Origin: a virus
Virus record (IMG/VR): IMGVR_UViG_3300025151_007610
Coordinates: 1-21,107 of that record
DNA length: 21,107 nt
Reading direction: 5' to 3' (one strand)
Part shown: piece after piece, positions 2,406 through 17,032 of the stretch
Position numbering within the stretch: position 1 is the stretch's first letter
How the letters are laid out: every line of letters begins with the position of its first letter
Notes under the pieces: generated by a model
Seen by the model: the letters and a program-made list of their open reading frames with translations, nothing else
Databases searched by the model: none
What the model was told of the DNA's origin: nothing
Position numbers and translations under genes: made by a program

Positions 2406-3015
2406 TAGAATAATCTTAACAGACGTGGACGGAGTGCTGTTAGAATGGGAGAACCATTTTACAGAGTGGATGTTACAAAGGTCATACTACAATGATCAAA
2501 ACGAAAGGATATATCCTTACAAATTACTACCCAATAAACAAAACACCTATGAGATGGCAGAAAGATTTGGTCTCTCGATATCAGAGATAAGGAAAGAAAT
2601 ACGAGAATTCAATAAAAGTGCATGGATGGGAACACAACAACCAATGGAAGATTCACAAACATGGGTAAAACTGTTGGCCGCAGAGGGTTGGACATTCATC
2701 CCTATCACATCGCAAACATCAGATATACCAGCACAAATCCTACGTAAAAAACGTTTAGGTGAACTTTTCGGCGACCACGTTTTTAAAAATTATCATATCC
2801 TAGATACCGGATCGGACAAAGATTCTGCACTTGCGGAGTTCCACGGAACCGGACTGTATTGGGTAGAGGACAAGCCAAAGAACGCACTAGCCGGGCTCAA
2901 ATACGGCTTAAACCCTATATTAATCGACCATCCATACAACCGAGATTGTAGAGAACCCAATATTACCAGAGTAAATAATTGGAAACAAATACACTCTCTA
3001 CTTCATGGAAAATAA
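2389..3015 (+). CDS. HAD-superfamily hydrolase-like protein
   Basis: 208 residues. The N-terminal ILTDVDGVLLEW carries the HAD motif I DxD (D12, D14), the nucleophile and acid/base pair of phosphatases in this superfamily. Motif II is probably PITSQ (T107/S108), motif III K144 in TGSDKDSA, and motif IV the acidic pair E160-D161 in YWVEDKPKNALAG. An insert of about 80 residues after motif I would be the cap that sets substrate choice. The likely activity is phosphate-monoester hydrolysis of a sugar, nucleotide or nucleic-acid end; the substrate cannot be told. It overlaps uvsY (17 bases) and the radical SAM gene (11 bases). It could serve DNA metabolism with uvsY or sugar-phosphate processing with the island that follows. 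Confidence 0.75.
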   Translation: MQTSNNRIILTDVDGVLLEWENHFTEWMLQRSYYNDQNERIYPYKLLPNKQNTYEMAERFGLSISEIRKEIREFNKSAWMGTQQPMEDSQTWVKLLAAEGWTFIPITSQTSDIPAQILRKKRLGELFGDHVFKNYHILDTGSDKDSALAEFHGTGLYWVEDKPKNALAGLKYGLNPILIDHPYNRDCREPNITRVNNWKQIHSLLHGK

Positions 3016-4205: not shown

Positions 4206-4880
4206 ATGAAGATATACGTTGGACATGACAGCAGAGAAGACATAGCATACCAGGTCTGCGAACACAGTATCAAAAGAAGAGATCCTTCAGCAGAAGTAAT
4301 ACCATTAAAACAAAAACAAATGCGAGACCAAGGACTGTACACAAGGCCCGTGGACAAACTTGCATCTACCGAATTTACGTTTACAAGATTTTTTGTGCCA
4401 TATCTAAATGACTTCAAAGGATGGGCAGTATTTTGTGATTGTGATTTTTTATGGAAAATTCCAAGTCATGAACTGACAAAATATTGCGACTCTTCAAAAG
4501 CAGTTGTTTGTGTACAACATGACTACACACCAAAAGAGACTACAAAAATGGACGGCCAAGTGCAAACCGTATATCCGAGGAAAAATTGGAGTAGTATGGT
4601 GCTGTGGAACTGTGAACATCCTAAAAACAAAATACTTACACCGGACCTATTGAATGAAGAATCTCCAAAATTTTTACACAGATTCAGTTGGCTAGATGAC
4701 AACGAAATTGGATCATTGCCATTGGAGTACAATTGGCTTGTGGGTTGGTACAAGGAACCTGCGGATGGTAAGCCAAAAATACTGCATTACACAGAGGGTG
4801 GACCATGGTTCGATGGCTACCGCGATTGCGAATATGGCGACGATTGGAAAAAGGAACTTATAAATCTTTTTAGTTCATAA
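4206..4880 (+). CDS. GT8-like glycosyltransferase (GT-A fold)
   Basis: 224 residues. The start MKIYVGHDSREDIAYQVCEHSI resembles the nucleotide-binding first strand and helix of GT8-like enzymes. The segment STEFTFTRFFVPYL followed by WAVFCDCDFLW holds the metal-binding DxD (D78, D80). A late KILHYTEGGPWFDGY has the His-Gly region that often supplies the third metal contact. No signal or membrane segment, so it would act in the cytoplasm on a nucleotide-sugar donor. It starts one base after the radical SAM stop, and its own stop TAA shares its last base with the next ATG (TAATG). Donor and acceptor cannot be inferred. Confidence 0.8.
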   Translation: MKIYVGHDSREDIAYQVCEHSIKRRDPSAEVIPLKQKQMRDQGLYTRPVDKLASTEFTFTRFFVPYLNDFKGWAVFCDCDFLWKIPSHELTKYCDSSKAVVCVQHDYTPKETTKMDGQVQTVYPRKNWSSMVLWNCEHPKNKILTPDLLNEESPKFLHRFSWLDDNEIGSLPLEYNWLVGWYKEPADGKPKILHYTEGGPWFDGYRDCEYGDDWKKELINLFSS

Positions 4881-5323
4881 TGCACTGGGAAAAACTGAAA
4901 CCGAATCATTTCTTTAAAGAACCTGATTATCATTTTTATAGCAAGACACTTTTTGACACCAGCGAATATGACCGATTGTATGAAAATCAGAAAAATCCAT
5001 CGCACATCTCATGGCAGGAGTTTGATAGAAAATATAAAACTGGTTTCCAATTGTACGATGACCTTAGAGATCTAGACCTTAACAGAGAGGTTATTTGCAT
5101 GTGGTTTTTCAAGGAAAGGTCAGACAACACAGCAGGTGAGGACATACAACTGGCAGGCAAAACCATAACCTATAGACAAAACAGTTTCTTTATCACAAAG
5201 TCTAAAGATATAAAGATAGTCGAGAGAACGAAAAGACAACATAACCGTAGGCCATTTGTCCAATTGGATATGAAAGACAGCACGTTTCAAGAATTATTGA
5301 AAAGATTTTATAAAACCACTTAG
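4880..5323 (+). CDS. conserved-looking protein of unknown function
   Basis: 147 residues, no family recognised. It is rich in aromatic and charged residues (HFFKEPDYHFYSKTLF near the start) and has the compact central run VICMWFFKERSDNTAGEDI followed by two short beta-like stretches (TITYRQNSFFITK, IKIVER), suggesting a small mixed alpha/beta fold. No membrane span, no Cys cluster. The start shares a base with the GT8-like stop, so it is translationally coupled and likely belongs to the same job. Its 3' end overlaps by 30 bases the end of the minus-strand GT2-like gene, an uncommon tail-to-tail arrangement. Possible carrier, cofactor or small transferase; no evidence selects among these. Confidence 0.7.
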   Translation: MHWEKLKPNHFFKEPDYHFYSKTLFDTSEYDRLYENQKNPSHISWQEFDRKYKTGFQLYDDLRDLDLNREVICMWFFKERSDNTAGEDIQLAGKTITYRQNSFFITKSKDIKIVERTKRQHNRRPFVQLDMKDSTFQELLKRFYKTT

Positions 5324-6007
5324 GGCATTTACATCAGCGTTGATATAGCGATTCCTAATTTTTTTCCAAACATACTCATCTCTGTTTGCAATATTTAGAT
5401 TTTTCCTGATCTGTTTGCCTGCATTGTCAGTCAATATCTTTTTGGCTTTGAATATAACATTGGGCATATACAAACATCTGTTCAGTTTACGAGCAACTTT
5501 TTGTGTGTATGAGTCAACATGCCAATGCCAAAATGATACAGGCGCTAACCAACCTAATGTGTTTGTCCAATTTTTATGAACTGCGAAATGAGCCGCTGGT
5601 AAGGGAGAATCGTCCCATAACTTGATCTCATTGCCTAACCTACTTGTATTTTTAGATCTTCCGTCTGCTGGCACCACCATTAAAATTTTATCTTTGTATT
5701 TTGAAAACTCGTCTGCAATTAACTGATCCCAATACTGCGTTTGTACCTGAACGTCATCTCCCATAAGCATCACGATATCATGCGATGCTTTCTCGCACAT
5801 CATATTCCAACTGTAACAAGTGGATTGGTTCGGGCCGATTGTATAATATTTTTCGTCTAATAGATCTTTATATTCTTCTAATTTTTCATCATCTTCATTT
5901 AGATAAAATAAAAATTCTGTTTCATATTTCTGTGTTTCTGTAGCAGTATCTACTAGTCTTTTCGCTAGTTCTGGCCTGCCTCTGGACGGACAACAAAATG
6001 AAATCAT
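5294..6007 (-). CDS. GT2-like glycosyltransferase
   Basis: 237 residues, last gene of the minus-strand operon. The start MISFCCPSRGRPELAKRLVDT is the typical GT2 first strand with PSRGRP; FLFYLNEDD follows, then a helix and the SHDIVMLMGDDVQ stretch, whose GDD (83-85) sits where GT2/GT-A enzymes have the metal- and nucleotide-binding DxD. A later SFWHWHVDSY and the basic C-terminal region (GKQIRKNLNIANRDEYVWKKIR) could hold the acceptor or membrane-proximal face. There is no transmembrane helix, unlike many GT2 synthases. The start overlaps the epimerase stop as ATGA. At only 237 residues this is a single catalytic domain. Sugar and acceptor unknown. Confidence 0.8.
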   Translation of the reverse strand: MISFCCPSRGRPELAKRLVDTATETQKYETEFLFYLNEDDEKLEEYKDLLDEKYYTIGPNQSTCYSWNMMCEKASHDIVMLMGDDVQVQTQYWDQLIADEFSKYKDKILMVVPADGRSKNTSRLGNEIKLWDDSPLPAAHFAVHKNWTNTLGWLAPVSFWHWHVDSYTQKVARKLNRCLYMPNVIFKAKKILTDNAGKQIRKNLNIANRDEYVWKKIRNRYINADVNALSGFIKSFQ

Positions 6008-7008
6008 ATTAATTTTTTCTTCCAGGTGTCGGGAGTCTGTTCGTTAATAATTTCTAATGGAAGATGATATTGAAACTTTTTAGTGCCTCTAGTCCTAATA
6101 TAATCCGCAGTTTTCTTTACTGATTGTCGCATGTTAGTTGACGTTTTATAATTTAACAACTCGCGTGCCTTGTCAGAAGAACAAGTCGCAAGTTTAACTT
6201 CTTTTGGCCTGTCCTTGTGATGAATAGGAGCGAGATTAACTCCTGTTTCGTTAGCACAGGCTTCGGCTAATTCATTAATTGTAACCGGTTCTTCGTCCGG
6301 ACCAATGTTGATCACTTCGCCGACAACGTTGTCGTTAAATGCAAGTGCATTAAGACAGTATAAACAATCATCAATATAACTAAAACATCTTTTTTGTTCG
6401 CCATCGCCATAGATAATTGGTTGCTTACCTTGTAACATTCTGTTAAGCATAATTGACATAACGTTCCTGAATGGATCATCATATTTCTGCCTTGGGCCAA
6501 CTATGTTGTGTGGAACGGCAATGACATACTCTACTCCGTGCGTTTCACATAAATTTTTCAGTACATCTTCTCCGGCTTTTTTTGCAATACCATATGGATC
6601 CTGGGGGCGACATTCATAAGTTTCTTTGTATGGCACATCATCATGATGTCCGTATCTCGCCATACTAGAACAATATACGATTCGTTTAACTTTGTTTCTA
6701 ATTGCCGCAGTGATAGTGGTGACTGACGCTTCAAATATATTTCTTGTCACTAACACTGGAGAAAAAACTGATAGTCCTTCGTAGGCAGTGGCCGCGGTGT
6801 GATAAACGATGTCACAACCTTTCATCGCTTTAGTAAGGTTCTCTAAATCACAACAATCAACTTGGTGAAATTCTACATCTTGTGGTACGTTGTCTGTGTA
6901 TCCACCTATCATGTTGTCATTGCCTGCGACTGTGTGGCCTTGTGATATCATTAAATCCGCTAGATGAGATCCTAAAAATCCTGCGACGCCTGTTATAAAA
7001 ATTTTCAT
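6004..7008 (-). CDS. NAD-dependent sugar epimerase/dehydratase (extended SDR)
   Basis: 334 residues, the normal length for extended short-chain dehydrogenases acting on nucleotide sugars. Seen: the Rossmann GxxGxxG at residues 7-13 (GVAGFLG), YHTAATAYEGL near 69, the catalytic Ser pair VYCSSMARYG near 111-120, and the YxxxK dyad as YGIAK (139-143). VPHNIVGPRQ and CFSYIDDCLYCL later on match the substrate-binding part of UDP-sugar epimerases/dehydratases. It would convert a nucleotide sugar (for example UDP-glucose, UDP-GlcNAc or a GDP sugar) to the form used by the neighbouring transferases. The start codon follows the FkbM gene by 18 bases without a clear Shine-Dalgarno site. Family certain, exact substrate not. 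Confidence 0.9.
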   Translation of the reverse strand: MKIFITGVAGFLGSHLADLMISQGHTVAGNDNMIGGYTDNVPQDVEFHQVDCCDLENLTKAMKGCDIVYHTAATAYEGLSVFSPVLVTRNIFEASVTTITAAIRNKVKRIVYCSSMARYGHHDDVPYKETYECRPQDPYGIAKKAGEDVLKNLCETHGVEYVIAVPHNIVGPRQKYDDPFRNVMSIMLNRMLQGKQPIIYGDGEQKRCFSYIDDCLYCLNALAFNDNVVGEVINIGPDEEPVTINELAEACANETGVNLAPIHHKDRPKEVKLATCSSDKARELLNYKTSTNMRQSVKKTADYIRTRGTKKFQYHLPLEIINEQTPDTWKKKLI

Positions 7009-7026: not shown

Positions 7027-7653
7027 CTATGTGCGGTAGAAAACTTTATCTGGCCAATGTTCCAACAGAACTTTGAAACCTTGCTGACTCAAATATTTTT
7101 CAATTTCTCTATTGCTACTACCATATTTTTTAGTATTGTTATTCAATTCGATCATGATGTACTGACACTTCTTCAATGTTTGCTTGGCTCCCTTCAGCAC
7201 TTCCATTTCATAACCTTCTACGTCTATCTTAATAAGGTCTATGTCTAATATTTTTAGACTGTCAACGGTCACCATTGGTATTGTTCCTTCGCCAATCACA
7301 CGTTTACTTTGAGTGAAATCGTCATTAGACAATGATATAGTCTTTAGATGTTGCCCAACTGCCAACTGGTGTGTCTCTACATCTTCAGGCACATTTTTCA
7401 CCAAACATTCATAGTGTAACGCATCAGGTTCAAAAGCAATGACTCTGCCACAATATTTGTTCATCGCTACGCTCCATGTTCCTACCCATGCACCTATATC
7501 TAGGATGTGATTAAATTTTAAATTTTTTTCCTCGCAGTAATCAATAAATTTTTGAAGGCATTTGTTTTGTGTAAAGGGTTTGCCTGCTCTCCAATCCTCT
7601 ATGTGAATATCATTTGTTGGAACCCAAAAGCCGTTTACCTTTTCTGTTTTCAC
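7027..7653 (-). CDS. FkbM-family SAM-dependent methyltransferase
   Basis: 208 residues. The SAM-binding motif I is LDIGAWVG (51-58), followed by VIAFEPD (71-77), AVG near 98, the family-typical VTVDSL (128-133) and IKIDVEGYEMEVLKGA (141-156), the hallmark of FkbM O-methyltransferases. Known members methylate hydroxyl groups of sugars and natural products, often blocking chain extension or masking epitopes. The start is GTG, inside the stop of the upstream gene (GTGA, 7650-7653), a sign of coupled translation. Within a glycosyltransferase operon the simplest role is 2-, 3- or 4-O-methylation of a sugar in the finished glycan; the position is unknown. Confidence 0.9.
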   Translation of the reverse strand: MKTEKVNGFWVPTNDIHIEDWRAGKPFTQNKCLQKFIDYCEEKNLKFNHILDIGAWVGTWSVAMNKYCGRVIAFEPDALHYECLVKNVPEDVETHQLAVGQHLKTISLSNDDFTQSKRVIGEGTIPMVTVDSLKILDIDLIKIDVEGYEMEVLKGAKQTLKKCQYIMIELNNNTKKYGSSNREIEKYLSQQGFKVLLEHWPDKVFYRT

Positions 7654-8462
7654 AAAAGTCCTTTATCCATTAATATTTCTACTGCTTTTCCGTTCTCTAT
7701 CTCTTCTGGTGTGAACTGCTGATATGCTAAACTGTAGAGCCAATCTTCGCAACCTACAAAATATGGATTTTCGATGTCAGCAAGTTCTTGCCCGCCAACT
7801 TCTTTTGCAAAACTTTTTTCATCACAGATGACAGGTACTCCCATGCACTGTGCCTCTACTGCCGCTATTGAACAACTTGTGACAACTACCCATGCATCTT
7901 TCAGATCTTCGGAAAGCGGAATCTTTGCCTCACTGGGTCCTGATGTCCCTCTGCCCCTAGGTTTTTCTCGAATTCTTATTGGTCTGTCTGTGTACCTTTT
8001 AATCTGTTCCACAGTGTCTTTTGTCCAGTTCGGCTTTCCTAAATAATCATGAATGCTATTAGAACTAGGACAGACCAAAATGTAACTTCCTTTAAAATCA
8101 GGTGCCTTTATTTTAATGCCAAATTTATCAAACCTATCGGACTTACACATTTTGAGATATGAGGCATGTATTCCATTTTTACAAATTCGCCAATAGTGAT
8201 TGTTTGGTTTAAGATTGCTATTATCAAATCTACCAAAATAAGGAGTGTCTGTAAACCAAAATTGATGTTTTCGTTGTTCAAGTTTTTGCACCATAGGTCT
8301 ATTATTTCCAACAAATCCCCAAAACATAGAATTTGCAACAGGATCCGTTTCGATATTGTTATCTAAAATTTTTGTCTGTTCGGGCCAAGATTTTCGCACA
8401 CCATTTATAACTTCCCATGCTTTACTATTTGGATTATTAAATGGAGAGTAAATTGTTAGCAT
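7650..8462 (-). CDS. capsule-synthesis/GT-B-like transferase paralogue P1
   Basis: 270 residues. Together with the genes at 10268, 11073 and 15438 it forms a diverged family in this window. Shared marks: a strand-helix block ending in RPIRIREKP (161-168) and a downstream VVTSCSIAAVEAQCMGVPV (193-211), which follows the S/T-S/T-x4-E-A-x3-G-x-P-V pattern seen in the C-terminal half of GT-B capsule transferases such as KpsC/KpsS. The end WLYSLAYQQFTPEEIENGKA is also shared. The N-terminal WFTDTPYFGRF is closest to paralogue P2. No membrane segment. The start overlaps the SGNH gene by 26 bases. Likely a cytoplasmic sugar transferase; without structure prediction a non-catalytic or other nucleotide-sugar role cannot be excluded. 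Confidence 0.65.
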   Translation of the reverse strand: MLTIYSPFNNPNSKAWEVINGVRKSWPEQTKILDNNIETDPVANSMFWGFVGNNRPMVQKLEQRKHQFWFTDTPYFGRFDNSNLKPNNHYWRICKNGIHASYLKMCKSDRFDKFGIKIKAPDFKGSYILVCPSSNSIHDYLGKPNWTKDTVEQIKRYTDRPIRIREKPRGRGTSGPSEAKIPLSEDLKDAWVVVTSCSIAAVEAQCMGVPVICDEKSFAKEVGGQELADIENPYFVGCEDWLYSLAYQQFTPEEIENGKAVEILMDKGLL

Positions 8463-9126
8463 CTATAAACTCCTTCAATTGCTTCGCCCATTCTTTGTGT
8501 CCTAATTCATTTGGGTGTGGATCATTTGGTTTGCATTGTTGATTATTTTCAACTGTGTAATCTAAATGACTGGTTTCAGGTTTGAAAAATCTATCTTTTG
8601 AAATCTTATCCCACAGCAATTTGATATCAGGGTTAGTAATCTTGGCATCTGAAAGTGTGTTATAAAACACGTATGGATATTTTTTATTCAAAAAATAATC
8701 TTGTAAATCTAGTAATCCTAATATAGATTCGACCTGTGTCATTTGATCTAGATCTGCTCCTAGGCTGAATAGATATTTTGTAAAGTTTGTGGTGTGTTTG
8801 TCTCTGTTAGGATCCCAAGTTTTCCAGGTAGTCTTCATTGTTGGGAACTTATGTGCCTTGTATCCATCAGATGTTGGAAAATCAAATCTATTGCCTCCAC
8901 TTGATCCTATAAGGAAAAAACACTTCTCCGCAAGTGCTGGGAACTTTTCACACCAGACCCTCGTTGTCCACATCAATCTTTTTGAACCCCTACCACCATT
9001 CGCAAGGTTTACTTCAACATCTAAACCTAAAAGTTTGGCTAGTTCTAAGCCACAATGAGTGTTGACATTATCTCTTGGTCTATAGGTCAAAAACGAACAA
9101 CCATTTATGAATAGTTTGGAAGGCAT
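8437..9126 (-). CDS. SGNH/GDSL-like hydrolase
   Basis: 229 residues, first gene of the minus-strand operon. The start MPSKLFINGCSFLTYRP has block I with the presumed nucleophile Ser in GCSF (S11). NLANGGRGSKRL near 40-51 supplies the Gly of block II, FFLIGSSGGNR near 90 resembles block III, and DPHPNELGHKEWAKQ near the C-terminus (D202, H204) resembles block V. The Asp-His spacing is DxH, not the usual DxxH, so the catalytic set needs checking. Family members are esterases, and some add or remove acetyl groups on polysaccharides. In this operon glycan O-acetylation or de-acetylation is the most natural role. No signal peptide, so it would act in the cytoplasm. Confidence 0.75.
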   Translation of the reverse strand: MPSKLFINGCSFLTYRPRDNVNTHCGLELAKLLGLDVEVNLANGGRGSKRLMWTTRVWCEKFPALAEKCFFLIGSSGGNRFDFPTSDGYKAHKFPTMKTTWKTWDPNRDKHTTNFTKYLFSLGADLDQMTQVESILGLLDLQDYFLNKKYPYVFYNTLSDAKITNPDIKLLWDKISKDRFFKPETSHLDYTVENNQQCKPNDPHPNELGHKEWAKQLKEFIDANNLLSI

Positions 9127-9143
9127 AACTCAATAATTATAGT
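9116..9143 (+). promoter_or_regulatory. promoter candidate for the plus-strand glycan operon
   Basis: TTGGAA (9116-9121), 16-base spacer, TATAGT (9138-9143), 22 bases before the ATG at 9166. No Shine-Dalgarno site is evident before that ATG. It overlaps the promoter candidate of the divergent operon. Confidence 0.4.
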
Positions 9144-9164
9144 ATAGTTATTGGCAAATTACAA
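9136..9164 (-). promoter_or_regulatory. promoter candidate for the minus-strand glycan operon
   Basis: On the minus strand TTGTAA (9164-9159), 17-base spacer, TATAAT (9141-9136), only nine bases before the ATG at 9126. The perfect -10 and correct spacing support it; the -35 matches four of six bases. It shares its bases with the opposite promoter candidate, so the two would compete for RNA polymerase. Confidence 0.45.
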
Positions 9165-9165
9165 C

Positions 9166-10248
9166 ATGAAGAACATTGATTCGATCAAATATTTTCTAGA
9201 TAGGTGGGAAACTATTGATAACAGTTACGACTACTCTGTGCCATATCATGAGAATATCGATCCACATTTCACAAGTTTACCAACTTTTGTTGCGGAGTTT
9301 TACAACTGTAAGATACATAGCACTCCCATACTGACTACAATGGAGAATAAACTGATCACAAGTTACGTTTGGGGACTCACTCATCAAAGTAAATTCAAAC
9401 CACAAAAATCCCATGGCATGTGGAAGGAATGGGGAGACAATGTCGACATAGATATGTCACCTGTGGATCAAGAATTTCATGAAAGATACACATATGTGTG
9501 GCTTCCCATTGACGAACAAAGCGTTGAAAATCCATGGCACATATGGATAGACGTCATTAGTAAATTTCGACTGATGGAAAAAAGATGGTCCACTAACTTT
9601 TCAAGATACTGTTATGTGTTGGCAAATGAAAGCAAGTACATGGAAAAGGTTTTGAAAGAATTATTTCCAGATGTGAAAGTGGTTGTAATGCCAAAAAATA
9701 AAGTGTGGCAGTTTAAACATTTGTTGGTGCCAAGTTTAAGTAATTCTAAAGACGGAGTTCTAACGCCACATCTTGCAGACTGGCTAAGACATTTTAAAGG
9801 ACTCACTGGACTAAAACAAATCACGCCACATAGGAAAATTGTTGTGCTACGTCCTGGGGCCAAAACTAGAAAAATAACAAATTCGGATGAACTGTTACTG
9901 GCCTTAAAAGGTTGGGAAACTGTTGCGTTGGAAAAAATGACCATCCGCGAACAAATGAAAACTTTTGCTGAAGCCACACACATTGTTGCGGCGCATGGTG
10001 CGGGTTTAGTAAATTTATTATGGTGTAGGCCAGGAACCAAAGTGTTAGAGATTCAAGATCCAAAAATGATTCATAAAAAAGTTTATCCAGTGTTGTCACA
10101 TCATCTTGGCTTGGAACATCAACTTTATCTTGCGGATACCATTGCAATCCCTTTACAAAATAATAAAAAACCAGCAGGAATAAAAAGATTCAGCGACCTA
10201 ATAAATTTCAGAGTAAATGTGAAAGATTTGATTAGACATTTAGATTAG
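9166..10248 (+). CDS. GT61-family glycosyltransferase (DUF563)
   Basis: 360 residues from the ATG at 9166; a TTG at 9151 is in frame but the ATG is preferred. The C-terminal half carries the GT61 signature: RKIVVLRPGAKTRKITNSDEL (223-243), where family members have the conserved Arg and an N-(D/E)-E segment, then a helix MTIREQMKTFAEATHIVAAHGAGL (258-281) and NLLWCRPGTKVLEIQDPK (283-300). The HGAGL-N and following P-G-x-x-V-x-E are the usual hallmarks. Eukaryotic GT61 members add xylose, arabinose or GlcNAc to proteins and glycans; bacterial and phage acceptors are mostly unknown. The first 200 residues are variable and probably hold acceptor recognition. No signal anchor, unlike the eukaryotic enzymes. 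First gene of the plus-strand operon. Confidence 0.85.
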   Translation: MKNIDSIKYFLDRWETIDNSYDYSVPYHENIDPHFTSLPTFVAEFYNCKIHSTPILTTMENKLITSYVWGLTHQSKFKPQKSHGMWKEWGDNVDIDMSPVDQEFHERYTYVWLPIDEQSVENPWHIWIDVISKFRLMEKRWSTNFSRYCYVLANESKYMEKVLKELFPDVKVVVMPKNKVWQFKHLLVPSLSNSKDGVLTPHLADWLRHFKGLTGLKQITPHRKIVVLRPGAKTRKITNSDELLLALKGWETVALEKMTIREQMKTFAEATHIVAAHGAGLVNLLWCRPGTKVLEIQDPKMIHKKVYPVLSHHLGLEHQLYLADTIAIPLQNNKKPAGIKRFSDLINFRVNVKDLIRHLD

Positions 10249-10267
10249 AACAAGTTAAAATTAAGTT

Positions 10268-11083
10268 ATGTACTATGCAGTAAAAACGGAAAGAGTTAAT
10301 ACACAAAAATACATTGACTCTATGAATAGAGGTATGCGTGGTAAACTTGTTGCCTATCATGATGTGCTTAATTCAACTGACTGTGAAAAAGTTACTTTTA
10401 TGGGTGTCCTACGTGGTACTAACCTTGTATACAACTGGGCAAAACAAAATAAAAAAGATTTCTACTACATTGACAGACCATATTGGGGTGAAAGCAGGGG
10501 CACACCTTATTGGATGAGGTGTGTGAAAAATGAACACGTGAAAACATTTGTTGAACACCGCCCGGATGACCGATACAAAAAATATTACAGAGGTGACCCT
10601 ATAAAACCTTATCACAAGAACGGAAAGTACGTGTTAGTTGTTCCACCGAGCCATAGTATGGCTCTGCACTTTGGTTCTCCTGACTGGCTGGACACGACCT
10701 TACAAACTTTAAAAGCAAACACAGATAGAGAATTAATTGTTAGGGAAAAACCTTACAATCCAAAAAGTTTTTTAGATGAACAAGGCAGAATGCAACCAGG
10801 ACCAAGTGAGAATAAACAACCTGCTAGGCCATTCGAATGGGATCAAGTCCATGCAGTTGTAACATTCAACAGTTCGATTACGATCAAGGCCCTACACAAC
10901 GGAGTGCCGTGTTTTACAAACTTCGAAAATCCTTGTACATCTATCTGTGAATCAGATTTCAGCAAAATCGAGACGCCGATGTATGAAGATAGACAACCAG
11001 TGTTCCATAGTTTAGCATACGGTCAATTTACACAGGAAGAGTTTCGAAACGGTTATGCATTGAGGACACTAGATGAAAGTTGA
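10268..11083 (+). CDS. capsule-synthesis/GT-B-like transferase paralogue P2
   Basis: 271 residues. It shares with P1 the N-terminal YYIDRPYWG (compare FTDTPYFG), the block KYVLVVPPS followed by helix and LIVREKP (156-162), the HAVVTFNSSITIKALHNGVP segment (195-214), and the end FHSLAYGQFTQEEFRNGYA. P1 and P2 are the closest pair in the four-member family. In the E-A position of the GT-B C-terminal motif P2 has K-A, and it also lacks the usual Val after G-x-P (it has Cys), so the active site may differ. No membrane span. A 19-base gap with no clear ribosome site separates it from GT61; its end overlaps P3 by 11 bases. Role inferred as a sugar transferase of the same glycan. Confidence 0.65.
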   Translation: MYYAVKTERVNTQKYIDSMNRGMRGKLVAYHDVLNSTDCEKVTFMGVLRGTNLVYNWAKQNKKDFYYIDRPYWGESRGTPYWMRCVKNEHVKTFVEHRPDDRYKKYYRGDPIKPYHKNGKYVLVVPPSHSMALHFGSPDWLDTTLQTLKANTDRELIVREKPYNPKSFLDEQGRMQPGPSENKQPARPFEWDQVHAVVTFNSSITIKALHNGVPCFTNFENPCTSICESDFSKIETPMYEDRQPVFHSLAYGQFTQEEFRNGYALRTLDES

Positions 11084-12056
11084 AATATTTAGACGCACAG
11101 TAAAGGACAGGAAGACTGGAATGAGTTTCCAGTTATTGCAACACATGGCCGAAGGAATCAAGGCTTGTGGCGACACACCGATTATGGTAAATGAAAAACT
11201 TACAGGTGAATGGAGGCCTAACGAAATGGAACCAACAGAAAAAATAGGTTGCATGTTCGGATACGGTGGCAAGAATCAACCCCACCACACCAAAGGACGA
11301 AGACGTGACCTAGTTGAAAGGGCAAAGAAAAAAGGCATCTACATTATCACTTTTGACGGCGGAATACTATCAAGTTTTGGAAACACAATCACACACCCGC
11401 AACACCACTGGCGTGTTAGTTTATACTCACCAATGAACAACGGCAACTTCCTATCAGATGACAGTCCACCTGATAGATGGAATATGATGAATCGATTATG
11501 GAATATAAGATATGAGCCATGGAGGAAGTCAAACGAAAATGATCCCATACTATTTGTATTGCAACCAAAAGACAACTGGAGCATGGATGAACTTGATCCA
11601 ATAGACTGGTTCAAAGATGTGTACAACAAAATCAGACCATTGACAAAAAGAAAATTTTTGATAAGGCCACACCCGAACCACATGGCACAAATGATCAAAA
11701 GAAAAAATGAGTTTCCAAATGACTGTGAACTAATAGAAGGAAAGTCACACTGGGTAGGTGACGAGAAAAAGTACTACAGATTCAACTTCCAAGACGCTAT
11801 AACTAATGTTCATGCTGTTATTACTCACAATTCTACTGCCAGTGTCGACTCTTGCGTTCGTGGAATCCCTACCTTTGTTACAAGCAATCTTGCGATTTGT
11901 TGGCCTGTAGCCAACACTGATTTGACAAAAATAGAAACACCAATCTTTCCTGATCGTGAACAATGGGTTTACGATATTGGATATAAGATGTGGAGTACCG
12001 AAGAAATACGTAGTGGCACTGTGTTTAAACGTTTCAAAAATAAGTTGGGTTTATAA
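11073..12056 (+). CDS. capsule-synthesis/GT-B-like transferase paralogue P3
   Basis: 327 residues, the longest of the four. It has FLIRPHP (195-201) where P1 and P2 have RxREKP, HAVITHNSTASVDSCVRGIP (247-266) for the GT-B-like C-terminal motif (D replaces E before a small residue), and the shared end PDREQWVYDIGYKMWSTEEIRSGTVFKRFKNKLG. The HNSTASVDSCVRGIP form is the closest of the four to capsule-synthesis (KpsC/KpsS-type) proteins. The N-terminus has a GCMFGYGGKNQPHHTKGRRR region found in no other paralogue here except as spacing. The gene begins inside P2 and its stop TAA shares a base with the asparagine synthetase ATG. Transferase role inferred; donor unknown. Confidence 0.65.
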   Translation: MKVEIFRRTVKDRKTGMSFQLLQHMAEGIKACGDTPIMVNEKLTGEWRPNEMEPTEKIGCMFGYGGKNQPHHTKGRRRDLVERAKKKGIYIITFDGGILSSFGNTITHPQHHWRVSLYSPMNNGNFLSDDSPPDRWNMMNRLWNIRYEPWRKSNENDPILFVLQPKDNWSMDELDPIDWFKDVYNKIRPLTKRKFLIRPHPNHMAQMIKRKNEFPNDCELIEGKSHWVGDEKKYYRFNFQDAITNVHAVITHNSTASVDSCVRGIPTFVTSNLAICWPVANTDLTKIETPIFPDREQWVYDIGYKMWSTEEIRSGTVFKRFKNKLGL

Positions 12057-13789
12057 TGTGTGGCATATACGGAATAACAGATCACGATCCAACCTATATA
12101 CAACAGTATATAAAAAAATGTTCGCATAGAGGACCAGATGGATTCAAAGTATGGTGGGATCCAGATCACAAAGTCACACTGGGACACAATCTTCTTAGTA
12201 TTATGGCTAATCCTAATTTATCTACCCAACCATGGAAAACTCCTGCCGGAAATATTTTGGTATACAATGGAGAGATCTTTAATTACTACGAACTAAAGGA
12301 GAAGTACAAAGGCAAAGGTTTTGCCGGTATAACAGGTTGCGATACAGAACTACTTGCATGGGGACTAGATGAGTTTGGTATCAGTTTCCTAGACGAGATA
12401 GATTCAATGCATGGATTTGCCTATTACAAAATTGACACAGGCGAAATATTCATATCAAGAGATCATGCAGGGGTGAAGCCTCTCTATTATGCAGAAATAA
12501 GGGAGGGTCTGGTGTTTGGATCTGAACTGAAGGGACTACTTGACAAGGTCCCAGGAGCAAGGAACATGGACATGCTGGCGGCAAACTTTTTGAGTAGGAC
12601 TGGCTGTAATCCATCACGGAACTCTATATTTTCTGGCATAAGGCAATTATTGCCAGGTGAAACTTTGATCTATGATATCAAAGAAAAAAAATTTACAGGG
12701 TCAAAAAGAATATACATCAAACCAACAGGAAACAACAAATATGATCAAAAAGAATTTAGAAAACAAGTACACGACGCTGTAAAAAGATGTGCCATTGGAC
12801 AAAGAAAAATTGGGGTTTTCTTGAGCGGTGGCCTAGATTCAAGCATGGTGGCATTTGAATTAGGCAAAATTAAAAAAGATTTAAACACTTTCACAAACAA
12901 GATGCACCCTGAAGTAACTGGTCCGGAGGACTACAATAGTGATGCCAATGCCGCAAAAGTTCTAGCAGAGCAAGAACACTATAATCACACAGAAGTTGTT
13001 ATGACACCGAAAGAGTACATGGAAACATGGGACAAGTCTATATATTACATGGAACAACCAATTTTCAATCCTAGCATGTCAATGTATTGCTACACAAACA
13101 AAGTTATGTCTGAGAATGGCATTGTCGTGACCATGGCAGGAGATATGGGTGACGAACTCCTAGGCGGTTATCCGAAATACCAAAAAATGTTTTACGATAG
13201 AACCAATTGGCCTGTTAATTGGAGGGGACTGCTGTCCTTATGGATAAAGAGGATAAAAAGACCTAAAAGTTTAGTGCAAAATCCTATGCCTGATTCATCT
13301 TTGATAGATGCTCTCGAAGATTGCTATTCAAGTGAACTTTGGAATAGCAAGGACCCTGTGGCCTCGTACATGGCCTTGGACTGTGTTACTCAGGCGCCTG
13401 CAGAATTTTTCAGTAGGAACGATACATATGGAATGGCACACAGCATGGAAGGACGTTTTCCTTTGGCAACTAAAATCTTTATGCAATATTGCATAGGCAT
13501 ACCAACAAAATACAAACTAGATAAATCAGAAACAAAGATAATTTCTCGAAACGCTTATCTAGGTATTTTGCCAAATCAAATAACTTCCAAATCCAAAACT
13601 GGCTGGACGGTTCCAGTTGGCTACTGGCTAACAAACAAAATGGACAATAAACTCACAAATTTTTACACAAGAAGCATGGGCAATCAGCGACTTAATAAGA
13701 TCACCACAAGTCAAAAGTCTGCAAAAGCGTTGATACCGGATTTAATTTACAAGGACTGGAAAACAACCTACGAGGTGAAAAATGCATAG
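12056..13789 (+). CDS. asnB: glutamine-hydrolysing asparagine synthetase-like amidotransferase
   Basis: 577 residues, near the 554 of E. coli AsnB. The N-terminal glutaminase starts with the obligatory Cys2 (MCGIYGI) that hydrolyses glutamine, followed by HRGPDG (24-29), YNGEIFNYYEL (70-80), CDTELL (95-100) and SRDHAGVKPLYY (134-145). The synthetase half has the pyrophosphate loop LSGGLDSS (256-263), FTNKMHP and later AGDMGDELLGGYPKY, all expected for ATP-dependent amide formation. The enzyme uses ATP, glutamine and a carboxylate. In cells this makes asparagine, but relatives in surface-polysaccharide clusters amidate sugar acids. Its place between transferase paralogues and a sulfotransferase favours the second role, though a supply of asparagine in infection is also possible. 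It overlaps both neighbours. Confidence 0.9.
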   Translation: MCGIYGITDHDPTYIQQYIKKCSHRGPDGFKVWWDPDHKVTLGHNLLSIMANPNLSTQPWKTPAGNILVYNGEIFNYYELKEKYKGKGFAGITGCDTELLAWGLDEFGISFLDEIDSMHGFAYYKIDTGEIFISRDHAGVKPLYYAEIREGLVFGSELKGLLDKVPGARNMDMLAANFLSRTGCNPSRNSIFSGIRQLLPGETLIYDIKEKKFTGSKRIYIKPTGNNKYDQKEFRKQVHDAVKRCAIGQRKIGVFLSGGLDSSMVAFELGKIKKDLNTFTNKMHPEVTGPEDYNSDANAAKVLAEQEHYNHTEVVMTPKEYMETWDKSIYYMEQPIFNPSMSMYCYTNKVMSENGIVVTMAGDMGDELLGGYPKYQKMFYDRTNWPVNWRGLLSLWIKRIKRPKSLVQNPMPDSSLIDALEDCYSSELWNSKDPVASYMALDCVTQAPAEFFSRNDTYGMAHSMEGRFPLATKIFMQYCIGIPTKYKLDKSETKIISRNAYLGILPNQITSKSKTGWTVPVGYWLTNKMDNKLTNFYTRSMGNQRLNKITTSQKSAKALIPDLIYKDWKTTYEVKNA

Positions 13790-14567
13790 AAGAATTGGCA
13801 TTTTGAGGAACCAATACGAAAACATACCAAACTTGATTCTAAGTTTTCCTAGATGTGGGCGGACATGGATGAAACATTTACTTGGACACTACATCTCAAA
13901 AAAATATAAAGTTGAATTCACTAAATGGGTGGACAGACCCAGGCCGGGCATACCAAGGATTCTCTTCCGACATGACTGGATGAGCACCACGGGACACATA
14001 CCATGGGACGACTATTTTAGAATACAAGATGAATGTAAATTTATTTTTAGTAAGGAGATGGAAAAACAAAAAATTATATATCTGTTCCGGAACCCAATTG
14101 ATGTTTTGTTTAGTTATTGGCCATATCTGCAGAGCATACCTTACAAAAATTTTACCTGTCCACAACACACAGACATAATTGATTTTGCTAGTAATAAACA
14201 GTGGGGATTCGATATCATAATAAACTTTATGAATGCACAATTGGATCATTACGATAAACACAAAGGAAAAAAATTAATTGTACGTTATGAAAATTTGAAG
14301 GCGGACGACACGGACTGGCGTAAAATGATTGAGTTCATATTTGGATCATATTCAGACAGTTGGGATCAAGAAGCATACTCATATGCTAAAGAACAAACTA
14401 CATTTACCAAGATGCAGGAAAAAAACAATGCCAGCGTTCCCCCAGAACTAAAATTTTACAGGAGAGGGCAATCAGATTACATAAAAGAACTGCCAGCAGA
14501 AAAACATGATATCTTATTGAACTGGCCAGGGTATAAGGATTTAAATAGGAGAATAAATGAAAATTAA
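13782..14567 (+). CDS. sulfotransferase (PAPS-dependent)
   Basis: 261 residues. LILSFPRCGRTWMKHLL holds the 5'-phosphosulfate loop SFPRCGRTW (21-29), and IIYLFRNPIDVLFSYW (98-113) is the 3'-phosphate motif with R103 and S111, the two PAPS-binding signatures of cytosolic-type sulfotransferases. A later IVRYENLKAD matches the conserved strand near the C-terminal half. The reaction moves sulfate from PAPS to a hydroxyl or amine. There is no membrane anchor. The ATG overlaps the asparagine synthetase stop by eight bases and its own end overlaps the next gene by 11. The likely substrate is the sugar product of the neighbouring transferases, giving a sulfated glycan; PAPS would have to come from the host. 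Confidence 0.85.
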   Translation: MHRRIGILRNQYENIPNLILSFPRCGRTWMKHLLGHYISKKYKVEFTKWVDRPRPGIPRILFRHDWMSTTGHIPWDDYFRIQDECKFIFSKEMEKQKIIYLFRNPIDVLFSYWPYLQSIPYKNFTCPQHTDIIDFASNKQWGFDIIINFMNAQLDHYDKHKGKKLIVRYENLKADDTDWRKMIEFIFGSYSDSWDQEAYSYAKEQTTFTKMQEKNNASVPPELKFYRRGQSDYIKELPAEKHDILLNWPGYKDLNRRINEN

Positions 14568-15441
14568 AGTGATAACTTCTTATAAGCCAGGCACTTGGGA
14601 ACAATATTCTCGCAAAGGAATAGAATCCATGGCTGAACAATTTCCAAAAGAAATTGACATAGTGGTATACGCTGAGGAACCAAAACCAAAATGTAATCAT
14701 GAAAGATTGCAATGGATAGATTTAAATTCAGCAGAACCGGAATTATTTAAATTTAAAAACAAGCACAAAAACGATCCTGTTGCAAATGGAGAACTGCAAG
14801 AAATACCTAATGGCGTAAGACGCCCGGCTGAATTGCAAAAGAAAGGTGGCATGGACAAAAATAAAGGATCATATCTCTGGGCGGCCGTACGTTTTGCAAA
14901 CAAAGTGTTCTGTGTAGTCAACGGTGTACGTAATTCAAAAGATTATGATTATGTGGTATGGATCGATGCTGACACATTTACTTTTAGGCCTGTGCCATTA
15001 GACTTTTTCAAATCTTTGTTGCCAACAGATACCATGGTCACATATCTGGGAAGAGAAAATCCTAAACTAGGTGATGGTGGCAAATATCCAGAATGCGGCT
15101 TTGTTGGTTACAATCTAAAACACCCTGAAGTCCAAAATTTTGTGGATGAGTGGGAACAACTATACGTTACCGACGAGGTATTCAAATTGCTAGAGTGGCA
15201 TGACTCTTTTGTCTTTTGGCACCTGACTAAAAAATATCAGAAGCAAAAATCAGTTAAGGTTAATGACATAGGTTATTGGAAAGGGGTACGTGGACATCAT
15301 GTGTTTGTTAACAGTGAACTAGGACTATACATGGACCATATGAAAGGTAAGCGTAAAAAGATAGGAAGCTCGGCTCTCAATGACTTGAAAGTACAACACA
15401 CGGTCGACTACTGGAAAAGCGTACCACCGAGTTTGAAATGA
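14557..15441 (+). CDS. GT-A-fold glycosyltransferase-like protein
   Basis: 294 residues. MKIKVITSYKPGTWEQYSRKGI looks like the first strand and helix of a nucleotide-sugar transferase, and DYDYVVWIDADTFTFRPV carries a DxD (D137, D139) after a hydrophobic strand, the GT-A metal site. YPECGFVGYNLKHPEVQNFVDEW resembles the acceptor strand and helix following it in GT8/GT2-type enzymes. A large insert rich in Lys (residues 62-105) precedes the DxD strand. The start has a good ribosome site (TAGGAGA, seven bases before ATG), the clearest in the operon, so it may be expressed at a higher level than its coupled neighbours. The end forms ATGA with the next gene. No membrane segment; sugar unknown. 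Confidence 0.75.
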   Translation: MKIKVITSYKPGTWEQYSRKGIESMAEQFPKEIDIVVYAEEPKPKCNHERLQWIDLNSAEPELFKFKNKHKNDPVANGELQEIPNGVRRPAELQKKGGMDKNKGSYLWAAVRFANKVFCVVNGVRNSKDYDYVVWIDADTFTFRPVPLDFFKSLLPTDTMVTYLGRENPKLGDGGKYPECGFVGYNLKHPEVQNFVDEWEQLYVTDEVFKLLEWHDSFVFWHLTKKYQKQKSVKVNDIGYWKGVRGHHVFVNSELGLYMDHMKGKRKKIGSSALNDLKVQHTVDYWKSVPPSLK

Positions 15442-16307
15442 AAATAGAAGTTTGGACACAGCACGGGCCTTTGAATTCAGAAAAAATTTTCAAAGCGTTT
15501 ACGAAAAGTTTAGAAGAAGCAGGCGATGAAGTAATACTAAACACCCCGAGTGATGCCGATGTGGCTGTGATATGGAGCGTTCTGTGGCAAGGCAGAATGA
15601 GGAACTATAAACAAATATGGGAAAGATACAGACAAGCAAACAAGCCAGTAGTGGTGCTAGAAGTAGGCGGACTAAGAAGGAATGAAAGTTTCAAGATTGC
15701 AATCAATGGTGTCAACAGGAAAGCAGATTTTGCCAATCAAGATGTTGACGACACAAGATGGCCTCTATTCAAACATGAATTGAAACCATGGAAACAGACA
15801 GGCGACAACATTATAATATTAGGACAACATAGTGCCTCTGAACAATGGAAAGGTATGCCTAGCATGGGTGTTTGGTTCGAGCAACAAGTAAATGAAATCA
15901 GAAAACACACAGAAAGACCTATTCAAATAAGACCACATCCGAGGAATCCTGTAGGATTCGACGCACGAAAATTCAAGAATGTAAGTGTAGCACGTCCGAT
16001 AATGGACCGAAGCACCGTTGATGATACAAACTTTAAAGATGTGCTCAACAATGCCTGGGCCGTCGTAAATTTTAGTTCCAATCCTGCGATGGAGGCAGTG
16101 ATAAACGGAATACCTGTATTTGTGTCTGAAAGCAGTCTGTGTTATGAAGTTGGCAATCACAGTCTAGTAAATATCAACAATCCTAAAATGCCTGACAGAA
16201 AAGAGTGGATCAATAAGTTATCATACACAGAATGGTTTGAAGATGAGATAGCAAGAGGCTTACCATGGAGAAGAATAAAAAATAGGCTTATGAAAAATTA
16301 CATATGA
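15438..16307 (+). CDS. capsule-synthesis/GT-B-like transferase paralogue P4
   Basis: 289 residues. The shared block is IIILGQHS then helix and RPIQIRPHP (160-168), with WAVVNFSSNPAMEAVINGIPV (207-227) and the ending MPDRKEWINKLSYTEWFEDEIARGLPWRRIKNRLMK. This one keeps the E-A pair of the GT-B motif (MEA) and G-x-P-V, like P1. It groups with P3 by RPHP and by the long basic end (K/RNRL). The N-terminal WTQHGPLNSEKIFKAFTKSL may bind nucleotide or acceptor. Starts and ends with ATGA overlaps with the genes on either side. It lies four genes from P3, so the family is not simply one tandem array. Function inferred as sugar transfer. Confidence 0.65.
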   Translation: MKIEVWTQHGPLNSEKIFKAFTKSLEEAGDEVILNTPSDADVAVIWSVLWQGRMRNYKQIWERYRQANKPVVVLEVGGLRRNESFKIAINGVNRKADFANQDVDDTRWPLFKHELKPWKQTGDNIIILGQHSASEQWKGMPSMGVWFEQQVNEIRKHTERPIQIRPHPRNPVGFDARKFKNVSVARPIMDRSTVDDTNFKDVLNNAWAVVNFSSNPAMEAVINGIPVFVSESSLCYEVGNHSLVNINNPKMPDRKEWINKLSYTEWFEDEIARGLPWRRIKNRLMKNYI

Positions 16308-17032
16308 ACGTTATAGAAGAAATTAAATGGAAACCATACGAAGGTGAAACTGTCAACACTAAACTTATAATACGTGGAGGCAAGAAGATACAGGAAACTG
16401 CTTTCTATGAGGACCGTGTCAATGCCAAGGCCAAAGGTAATGCTTACTGCATTGGAAATGGTCCGTCAAGGAAAAACTTTGATTTAAACAGACTTAAAGC
16501 CACAGGACAGACTTACGGATGTAACGCATTGTACAGAGACTTCATACCAGATTTTATTTTCAGCGTTGATGCCAAAATGACTCTCTCAATGGTCAAGGAT
16601 AAAGTTTATGAAAAATGCATACACTATGCACCTTCATTAGAAGTCAACAGACACCCAAAAGGCGGACCGCCTGTGTTACATTTGATACCAAACAATCCAC
16701 ACTGGATATCAGGAAACACGGCCTTTTGGACCGCTGGTGTGCATGGACACAGAAACATTTACTTGATTGGTTATGATTTCCGAGAGTACGGCAAGGGCAA
16801 ACTTAACAACATATACCAAGACACAATTAATTATGGTGCCAGGAATGACGACACCGTGTTCGATGGTTGGTTAAAACAATTTAGAGACATGCTAAAGATG
16901 AGGCCTTACGTAAATTATACTATTGTGCATGATGATCCACCTGAGTATATGAATTATCTGCAGACGGGGACTGATTTAGGTAACACTAAACTTATGACTT
17001 ATTCTGAATTTGAAAAGGTGCTAACACCTTGA
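16304..17032 (+). CDS. GT42/DUF115-like glycosyltransferase (sialyltransferase-type fold)
   Basis: 242 residues, last gene of the plus operon. GNAYCIGNGPSRKNFDLNRL contains the GNGPS turn (51-55) found near the N-terminus of GT42 sialyltransferases (Campylobacter Cst type) and of DUF115/MptE-like proteins. The order of further motifs also fits GT42: a C-N pair (73-74), PDFIFSVD, then SGNTAFWTAGVHGHRNIYLIGYDF (136-159), which parallels the S-G, helix and IYLSGIDF of Cst enzymes. The region that gives Cst its catalytic His is not visible here, so activity as a sialyltransferase is unproven. It may transfer another CMP-linked nonulosonate or only share the fold. It overlaps the minus-strand SprT gene tail by 12 bases. 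Confidence 0.65.
   Translation: MNVIEEIKWKPYEGETVNTKLIIRGGKKIQETAFYEDRVNAKAKGNAYCIGNGPSRKNFDLNRLKATGQTYGCNALYRDFIPDFIFSVDAKMTLSMVKDKVYEKCIHYAPSLEVNRHPKGGPPVLHLIPNNPHWISGNTAFWTAGVHGHRNIYLIGYDFREYGKGKLNNIYQDTINYGARNDDTVFDGWLKQFRDMLKMRPYVNYTIVHDDPPEYMNYLQTGTDLGNTKLMTYSEFEKVLTP
17015..17030. terminator. short hairpin in the convergent overlap
   Basis: AAGGTG (17015-17020) and CACCTT (17025-17030) form a perfect 6-bp stem with a CTAA loop, lying exactly over the facing ends of the GT42-like gene (+) and the SprT gene (-). On the minus strand the stem is followed by TTTTCAAATT, a weak T-run; on the plus strand none follows. It may end transcription mainly from the SprT side. Confidence 0.45.

Follow-up and report, generated by a model that had tools for sequence, protein, structure and literature searches.

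The stretch of DNA analysed here (hereafter the window; 21,107 nucleotides, IMG/VR virus record IMGVR_UViG_3300025151_007610) is framed by genes for a UvsX recombinase (666..1721, +) and a UvsW helicase (18908..20374, +), which served as left and right backbone markers. Between them lie the four genes P1 (7650..8462, −), P2 (10268..11083, +), P3 (11073..12056, +) and P4 (15438..16307, +), with coordinates and strands as originally described; the start of P3 overlaps the 3' end of P2. Carriers of the locus are uncultured large marine phages. A near-identity DNA search of the window against phage records returned no match. Derivation of the region from pelagimyophages was rejected, as UvsX and UvsW are nearest to those of the jumbo phages Phosso and Atu_ph07. 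The host recognition cluster of pelagimyophages is located between vrlC and gp14 and contains tail fibre genes, whereas no tail fibre gene was recognised in the window and the neighbours are uvsX and uvsW.

Occurrence of the neighbouring genes was counted by best-match assignment in 67 non-redundant loci. Present in all 67 are a GT61 glycosyltransferase belonging to the cassette core (9151..10248, +; PF04577, E 1.7e-23) and a putative GT-A-like transferase (14557..15441, +), the fold of which was assigned by eye; the latter matches no Pfam family above cut-off and has similar proteins in Pelagibacter phage Mosig and podovirus ct7QV12. A protein with the motif GNGPSRK (16304..17032, +; 65 of 67 loci), overlapping the end of P4, is a candidate sialyltransferase (GT42)-like enzyme: its best PDB match, CstI (2p2v), is sub-threshold (E 0.09) and its match to PHROG 4603 ('alpha-2,3-sialyltransferase') has an E of 0.049, while its Caulobacter and Bradyrhizobium relatives match the same PHROG at 7e-42 and 2e-37, respectively. 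Less uniformly distributed are an FkbM methyltransferase (7027..7653, −; PF05050, E 5e-21; 58 loci), an accessory Asn-synthase-type amidotransferase (12056..13789, +; PF00733, E 1e-53; 39 loci), an NAD-dependent sugar epimerase/dehydratase (6004..7008, −; PF01370, E 1.8e-48; 20 loci), a GT2-like glycosyltransferase (5294..6007, −; PHROG 14945, E 1.5e-26; 16 loci) and an accessory sulfotransferase (13782..14567, +; PF00685, E 2.9e-10; 10 loci). The locus furthermore encodes a DUF6071 protein (8437..9126, −; PF19547, E 2.1e-6) and a putative transferase with the motif GHDSRE (4206..4880, +), relatives of which adjoin family members in Mosig, CcrSC and a Bradyrhizobium phage-plasmid; those of the latter two belong to PHROG 28018 (unknown function). 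Neither flippase, polymerase and initiating transferase nor any other clear membrane protein was found in the cassette. P1–P4 are best explained as the constant part of a gene cassette that builds a glycan and that lies, in a marine jumbo phage lineage, between uvsX and uvsW.

That P1–P4 form one family was confirmed by pairwise BLASTP (P1-P2, 3e-29; P3-P4, 2e-25; P1-P4, 2e-19; P2-P3, 8e-15), and a search with P1 alone recovers P2, P3 and P4 within the window. These values are too strong for chance motif likeness, which was ruled out. Structures were modelled for P1 and P3 (pLDDT 89.7 each), P2 and P4 being tied to them by BLASTP homology. The top Foldseek match in the PDB is KpsC for both models (P1, E 7.4e-7; P3, 6mgb, E 5.2e-9), with KrkA and WbbB also among the top matches; the one KpsC-like GT-B fold proposed for the family is thereby borne out, and P1 and P3 have this architecture in common with KpsC (GT107), WbbB (GT99) and KrkA (GT140). 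Superposition on KpsC-type structures (TM ~0.5, rmsd 8-11 Å) supports the fold class of the models, not a substrate. Unlike the Kdo transferases, which bacteria employ for their capsules, P1–P4 are short (270-327 aa) and devoid of detectable direct sequence similarity to them: KpsC was not reached by direct searches with P1–P4 or the family profile, and the same queries yielded no Pfam, PHROG or PDB sequence match above cut-off. Profile matches of the donor-side domain to Capsule_synth (PF05159) and DUF6716 (PF20471, putative glycosyltransferase) are weak and all below curated cut-offs. P4 matches DUF6716 at E 0.006; none of P1–P4 matches Capsule_synth at E 1, and family relatives score up to 16 bits against its gathering cut-off of 20 bits. 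Profile-wise, the donor-side domain is linked to Capsule_synth proteins by hhalign (90.5 %, E 1.3e-6).

The four proteins share the element [hydrophobic]-R-[EP]-[KH]-P, found as IREKP in P1 (7959..7973, −; aa 164-168), VREKP in P2 (10739..10753, +; aa 158-162) and IRPHP in P3 (11661..11675, +; aa 197-201) and P4 (15927..15941, +; aa 164-168). The longer form RxR-(E/P)-(K/H)-P initially described does not hold throughout, since the literal RxR occurs in P1 only (RIREKP). Downstream, S-x4-[E/K/D]-x6-G-[VI]-P follows in P1–P4 at like spacing; the segment is present as described, but S-x4-E-A-x4-G-x-P describes it better than S-x5-(A/S)-x4-G-(V/I)-P, and in this form it is in the same register as the Ser/Glu segment of KpsC (6mgd: S-LFGF-E-A-LIA-G-K-P) and shared with the retaining beta-Kdo transferases. 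The T/IDxPYxG motif of P1 (FTDTPYFG) and P2 (YIDRPYWG) was likewise verified, as was the basic tail of P3 and of P4, and the division into P1/P2 and P3/P4 proved to be a deep split running through the whole family.

Among 622 relatives, an HP class (including P3 and P4) and a KP class (including P1 and P2) can be distinguished. The HP class has kept the (K/R)XHP nucleotide-binding motif, as RPHP in P3 and P4, and the Gln of QxxxD; the nucleophilic Asp is absent from its usual place. In the KP class, Gln is gone (CPSSNS in P1, VPPSHS in P2) and Lys replaces the His of RxHP; its members retain the phosphate segment Ser...Gly-x-Pro along with invariant Glu and Gly. His is paired with Gln in 213 of 231 relatives and Lys with Pro or Ser in 376 of 384; in a 78-row tree the class label changes twice, the 31 HP rows forming a single clade (support 100/98). 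At the QxxxD position, P3 (LQPKDNWS; 11559..11582, +) has Asn and P4 (GQHSASEQ; 15822..15845, +) Ser in the nucleophile column, P1 and P2 read PSSNS and PPSHS, and none of the P1–P4 orthologues aligned has Asp in this column. QPxDNWSM is near-invariant across 98 P3 orthologues, and as the Asp of P3 stands one residue earlier (QPKDN), a shifted nucleophile is possible in this protein. Based on these motif changes (Asp missing in the HP class; Gln and His lost in the KP class), P1–P4 are KpsC-like GT-B enzymes outside GT99/GT107. The motif varies among known enzymes as well, with KrkA carrying Ser instead of K/R in (K/R)XHP (PMC12887879).

Direct sequence relatives of P1–P4, one or two copies each and hypothetical or unannotated, occur in the Caulobacter phages CcrSC (gp170/gp171) and CcrColossus, in ct7QV12 and on the Bradyrhizobium plasmid pUSDA31-2, and Mosig contains two family members. 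A genome scan with the podovirus protein revealed no relative. The relatives adjoin tail genes in CcrSC, are located between portal and tail genes in the Bradyrhizobium phage-plasmid, near terminase in ct7QV12 and near the major head protein in a prophage; in the window and in Mosig, family genes are surrounded by genes of DNA metabolism rather than of the virion. Predicted folds near that of P1 (TM 0.66-0.68) are also seen, at 14-19 % identity, in four proteins of the eukaryotic giant virus Tetraselmis virus 1, which are listed as uncharacterised or as capsule polysaccharide biosynthesis proteins.

Across related marine contigs, number and positions of P1–P4 are nearly fixed and all four copies are under strong purifying selection (dN/dS 0.03-0.06; P1 ~0.05, P2 ~0.06). 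Decaying pseudogenes were rejected on the basis of these values. The fast-changing repertoire that had been anticipated thus does not apply to the set of genes; it does apply to the P2–P3 block, which differs sharply between near-identical backbones. In contig pairs with at least 97 % identical UvsW, identity of P2, the most variable copy with several allele types, ranges from 35 to 100 % (median 48). Identities of P2, P3 and the 14557..15441 transferase correlate mutually at 0.75-0.83 and with UvsW at 0.12-0.27 only, whereas P1 correlates with UvsW at 0.68; alleles of P1 and P4 follow the backbone, and DUF6071 is the first gene past P1 with uncoupled alleles. Unequal rates could also produce such identity correlations. 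The start codon of P4 is the exact start of DNA homology in two contig pairs (e.g., L070/L098); this sharp boundary was examined in few contig pairs. The mosaic would reflect allele replacement rather than very uneven divergence. Conserved flanks with exchangeable inner genes also characterize O-antigen and capsule loci, to which the locus is likened in its way of working. For marine phage genomics, a near-fixed four-enzyme frame with exchangeable alleles provides a testable unit in place of loose lists of hypothetical genes.

As a whole, the locus is best explained by old GT-B paralogues in a phage-glycan cassette with recombined inner alleles, which we regard as reasonably probable; for the activity, donor, acceptor and purpose of P1–P4 we infer the following. 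P1–P4 would be soluble GT-B glycosyltransferases with retaining beta-Kdo transferases as nearest solved relatives, the HP enzymes keeping the Gln and RxHP that bind CMP-Kdo without a catalytic Asp in the usual place. They may work sequentially with GT61, the 14557..15441 enzyme and the GNGPSRK protein, building an oligosaccharide that includes an ulosonic acid supplied in CMP-activated form. Hosts make CMP-Kdo themselves, and the CMP-Kdo synthetase gene kdsB, found in only one lineage of the clade, overlaps P2 there (L146/L108). The acceptor would be made by the phage, a virion protein being the likeliest candidate, and no lipid-linked export would be involved, given that the cassette has no clear membrane protein and that relatives lie near virion genes. 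P1 and P4 would flank a block of DUF6071, GT61, P2, P3, accessory genes and the 14557..15441 gene, in which recombination could swap alleles and change the glycan while the four-enzyme frame is retained.

It is also conceivable, though rather unlikely, that during infection the cassette remodels the host's outer surface, either the core or the O chain of the LPS, so that competing phages are excluded, the soluble transferases acting on lipid A-core at the inner membrane face prior to export by host machinery. Kdo is a standard LPS sugar, kdsB adjoins P2 in one relative, and allele replacement fits surface variation; the missing flippase, polymerase, initiating transferase and membrane protein and the relatives beside or near virion genes in four other phages argue against it. 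Glycosyltransferase clusters of pelagimyophages (PMC7029224) and of jumbo phages (PMC7824862) have been interpreted as modifiers of host surface polysaccharides. These clusters likewise combine several glycosyltransferases with sugar-modifying enzymes and vary among relatives; they differ from the present cassette with its uvsX–uvsW location, its Atu_ph07/Phosso-like jumbo phages and its near-fixed four paralogues, and the portions considered contain no description of the P1–P4 family or its classes.

Within the preferred phage-glycan reading, the KP class probably uses a different donor or mechanism, as Gln is missing and Lys stands for His. A more specific proposal is put forward tentatively: KP proteins may be a new GT-B type from CMP-Kdo-type ancestors, having lost Gln, Asp and His jointly and adopted another donor or mechanism, with strong purifying selection still acting on them; HP and KP would constitute a phage toolkit recurring in pairs beside virion genes of unrelated phages, and in this lineage the conserved outer copies would bracket an allele-exchange block that varies the phage glycan. 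That the KP copies P1 and P2 are instead non-catalytic partners or regulatory subunits of HP enzymes would agree with their lack of known catalytic residues and with the usual co-occurrence of both classes on a contig (the window's clade, CcrSC, two alphaproteobacterial genomes, some Mosig-like phages); the retained phosphate segment with invariant Glu and Gly, and Bradyrhizobium-type phages, where a KP copy occurred without HP copy in the stretch seen at 24 of 24 loci, make this doubtful. Slightly less credible still are ordinary retaining beta-Kdo transferases of GT99/GT107 type, operating by double displacement via a covalent Asp adduct: the fold, and RxHP plus Gln in P3 and P4, would suit them, but Asp is absent from the nucleophile column of all four, and in P1 and P2 neither Gln nor the HP His is left. 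QxxxD and RxHP are intact together in only ~16 of 622 relatives in the family, including a fifth copy within the window's clade (L145, 7335..8348) and a phage relative reading GQVPQDASV...FRPHP against GQVESDASI...YKPHP in KpsC (6mgd). According to published work, no other glycosyltransferases have so far been found to share the double displacement of retaining beta-Kdo transferases, and the origin of these enzymes is unclear (PMC10148158, PMC12887879). A large phage family of the same fold, ranging from complete QxxxD/RxHP to replacement of all three residues, represents a natural series for studying how this mechanism came about or disappeared.

Repeated duplication inside this phage lineage, the original prediction, could draw on the shared locus and the pairwise likeness of P1/P2 and P3/P4, but is highly improbable: a single P1–P4 clade is rejected (AU p = 0.00012; 3e-11 once the two most distant contigs are added), the clades P1+P2 (AU 0.027) and P3+P4 (AU 0.019) are rejected more weakly, and P1-, P3- and P4-type relatives are found in other phages. 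Compared with outside relatives, the copies do not form one clade; separation of the paralogues therefore predates this phage lineage, and the copies are old, not recent duplicates. P1 is sister to MosigB of phage Mosig (100/99), to which it is nearer than to P2, P3 or P4.

The 21,107-base IMG/VR record harbours four open reading frames at exactly the positions of the original prediction: P1 (7650–8462, minus strand), P2 (10268–11083, plus strand), P3 (11073–12056, plus strand) and P4 (15438–16307, plus strand). Judged by sequence, their homology is beyond doubt, with BLASTP E-values of 3e-29 (P1–P2), 2e-25 (P3–P4), 2e-19 (P1–P4) and 8e-15 (P2–P3), and a P1 query recovers P2, P3 and P4 within the window. 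The motifs proposed to be shared are real in all four, except that RxR is present in P1 alone; the second element is also present, its better form being S-x4-E-A-x4-G-x-P, in which P2 has K and P3 has D at the E position. The four KpsC-like transferases thus form a real set that is ancient and well conserved, and dN/dS values of 0.03–0.06 indicate purifying selection in all four copies. AlphaFold2 models built from family alignments for P1 (pLDDT 89.7, pTM 0.86) and P3 (pLDDT 89.7, pTM 0.87) both retrieved KpsC and KrkA as top Foldseek matches in the PDB, with WbbB ranking lower, in agreement with the predicted kinship to KpsC-type transferases. TM-scores of ~0.5 at rmsd 8–11 Å mean that the models support fold class and broad kinship, not substrate. 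The donor-side domain matched Capsule_synth proteins (hhalign) at 90.5 % (E 1.3e-6) with an alignment of the HP class (P3 and P4 type, RxHP) and at 62 % with a mixed alignment; PDB sequence searches with the family yielded no match. In BFVD, hits of the P1 model comprise phage proteins as well as four proteins from Tetraselmis virus 1 whose predicted folds are close to P1 (A0A2P0VNK4, A0A2P0VP54, A0A2P0VP74 and A0A2P0VP72), hence this giant algal virus also has several copies of the fold.

Retaining β-Kdo transferases are defined in the literature by QXXXD, whose Asp is the nucleophile and whose Gln binds the carboxylate, and by (K/R)XHP, the motif that holds CMP (PMC10148158, PMC12887879). 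A complete QxxxD + RxHP site was found in ~16 of 622 aligned members from all loci, including podovirus ct7QV12 (GQVPQDAS...RPHP) and the relatives L185 (GQNMFDAS...RDHP) and L145 (QKVGDAS...RPHP), to be compared with GQVESDAS...KPHP of KpsC (6mgd). Orthologues of P3 display QPxDNWSM + RPHP, those of P4 QHxxS + RPHP, those of P2 PPxxx + RxKP or KxKG, and those of P1 PSSxxI + RxKP, the alignment register being off by one at the Gln column of P1, where the residue is S or P by register and neither is Gln. P1–P4 share with KpsC the fold and some features of the donor site; membership in GT99/GT107 is not shown, since the nucleophile test failed. P3 may possess a shifted nucleophile, as its Asp is located one residue ahead of the usual place. 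His is paired with Gln in 213 of 231 family members, and Lys with Pro or Ser in 376 of 384. This pairing, together with the two changes required for the HP and KP (P1 and P2 type, Lys for His) classes on a 78-row tree (31 HP rows in one clade at 100/98), argues that the classes are old and that their site residues change together. A 16 kb contig (L162) carries five members, two with the complete site and the others near P3 and P4.

Duplication within the phage lineage, as originally proposed, is contradicted by phylogeny: a single P1–P4 clade was rejected in the AU test (p 0.00012; p 3e-11 with the distant contigs L111/L112 added), as were, more weakly, the groupings P1+P2 (0.027) and P3+P4 (0.019). 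The single-clade rejection is not marginal, and the gene set therefore either predates this lineage or was assembled through inter-phage transfer. In the underlying 73-row tree, which contains several long branches rendering exact placements uncertain, P1 pairs with MosigB from Pelagibacter phage Mosig as its sister (100/99), P2 is placed, with weak support, close to MosigA and one bacterial relative, and P3 and P4 group with Caulobacter-phage, podovirus and bacterial-genome relatives.

Among 67 non-redundant contigs selected for carrying all four copies, the GT61 gene (9151–10248, plus strand) and the putative transferase gene at 14557–15441 (plus strand) are present in 67, and the GNGPS gene (16304–17032, plus strand) in 65. 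More variable are Asn synthase (39), epimerase (20), sulfotransferase (10) and radical SAM (4), part of the absences left of P1 being due to contig ends. Since these contigs were picked for four copies, copy-number stability is better gauged from every locus of the window clade that reaches 10 kb: 89 have four copies and two have five, most others being cut by contig ends. Copies are rearranged in two contigs (L108/L109), while L111 and L112 contain five each; in a 91-kb contig, the fifth copy has the complete site and lies distant from the cluster. Other genes of the window include that of a Radical SAM/SPASM protein (3005–4204; recognised in only 4/67 related loci), the variable accessory genes of Asn-synthase type (12056–13789) and for a sulfotransferase (13782–14567), and that of a 451-aa protein adjoining uvsW (17552–18907; 56/67 loci) without family match.

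Within this stable frame, pairwise identities (with locus bootstraps) of P2, P3 and the 14557 gene correlate mutually at 0.75–0.83 and with UvsW at 0.12–0.27; P1 correlates with UvsW at 0.68, and P4 at 0.66 with its neighbour GNGPS and at 0.40 with UvsW. In contig pairs with UvsW identity of at least 97 %, P2 identity spans 35 to 100 %. The pair L070/L098 shares 98 % in UvsW, 93 % in P4 and 87 % in P1, yet 38 % in P2 and 71 % in P3, and long DNA homology starts with the first base of P4 (L070 position 7680), where homology also breaks in L070/L093. Our reading is that alleles have been replaced in the interval bounded by P1 and P4; unequal rates alone would not yield a sharp edge, a feature inspected at the DNA level in a few pairs. 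In L098/L067, Asn synthase shares 57 %, but P2, P3 and the 14557 gene 93–95 %, a nested replacement.

With respect to the donor, a 235-aa gene over the P2 end in L146/L108 of the window clade encodes 3-deoxy-manno-octulosonate cytidylyltransferase (KdsB; NCBIfam NF003952, 204 bits at cut-off 193; best PDB match E 5e-34). On phage contig L146, this KdsB-type CMP-Kdo synthetase gene (11888–12595) overlaps the P2-orthologue end; no other was found among the loci examined. GNGPS weakly resembles GT42 sialyltransferases, its relatives matching a PHROG of that name, and also weakly matches MptE-like. KdsB, the L111 cytidylyltransferase and GNGPS point to, but do not prove, CMP-activated acidic sugars. 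On L111, one ORF (1541–2842) fuses cytidylyltransferase (PF02348) and RraA-like aldolase (PF03737) domains, and the adjacent one (2897–3646) combines a heptose-type nucleotidyltransferase with a mannose-6-phosphate isomerase-like domain; by this route a phage might make a CMP-activated keto-acid sugar.

As acceptor, a phage protein is favoured, because a simple hydropathy scan of the cassette genes between uvsX and uvsW revealed no clear membrane protein (highest value 1.62, near the epimerase N-terminus and fitting its Rossmann strand) and because virion genes neighbour the family in four other phages. Both observations speak against the main rival, host surface polysaccharide, on which related clusters are read to act in published work (PMC7029224, PMC7824862).

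Beyond the window clade, Mosig has two copies next to genes for FkbM-like methyltransferases, a sulfotransferase and proteins like GHDSRE (putative transferase, 4206–4880, plus strand) and 14557. Similar neighbours accompany two tandem copies downstream of tail genes in CcrSC, the relative in ct7QV12 and that of a Bradyrhizobium phage-plasmid, located between portal and tail genes. A family match was detected in 7 of 385 alphaproteobacterial genomes. In one (L139), a copy pair follows prophage major head protein and maturation protease genes on the same strand; in L140, the few tested neighbours include no phage gene, and L141 has an integrase gene within ~4 kb, so that not all bacterial copies are shown to come from phages.

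An ARAGORN-called tRNA-Thr (352–446, minus strand) inside an opposite-strand Ala/Pro-rich open reading frame is probably a false call. UvsX (666–1721, plus strand) and UvsW (18908–20374, plus strand) have their nearest counterparts in two jumbo phages, Phosso (Sinorhizobium, 469 kb; 70 % identity in UvsX, 54 % in UvsW) and Atu_ph07 (Agrobacterium, 490 kb), and among the window's relatives are contigs 196, 121 and 91 kb long.
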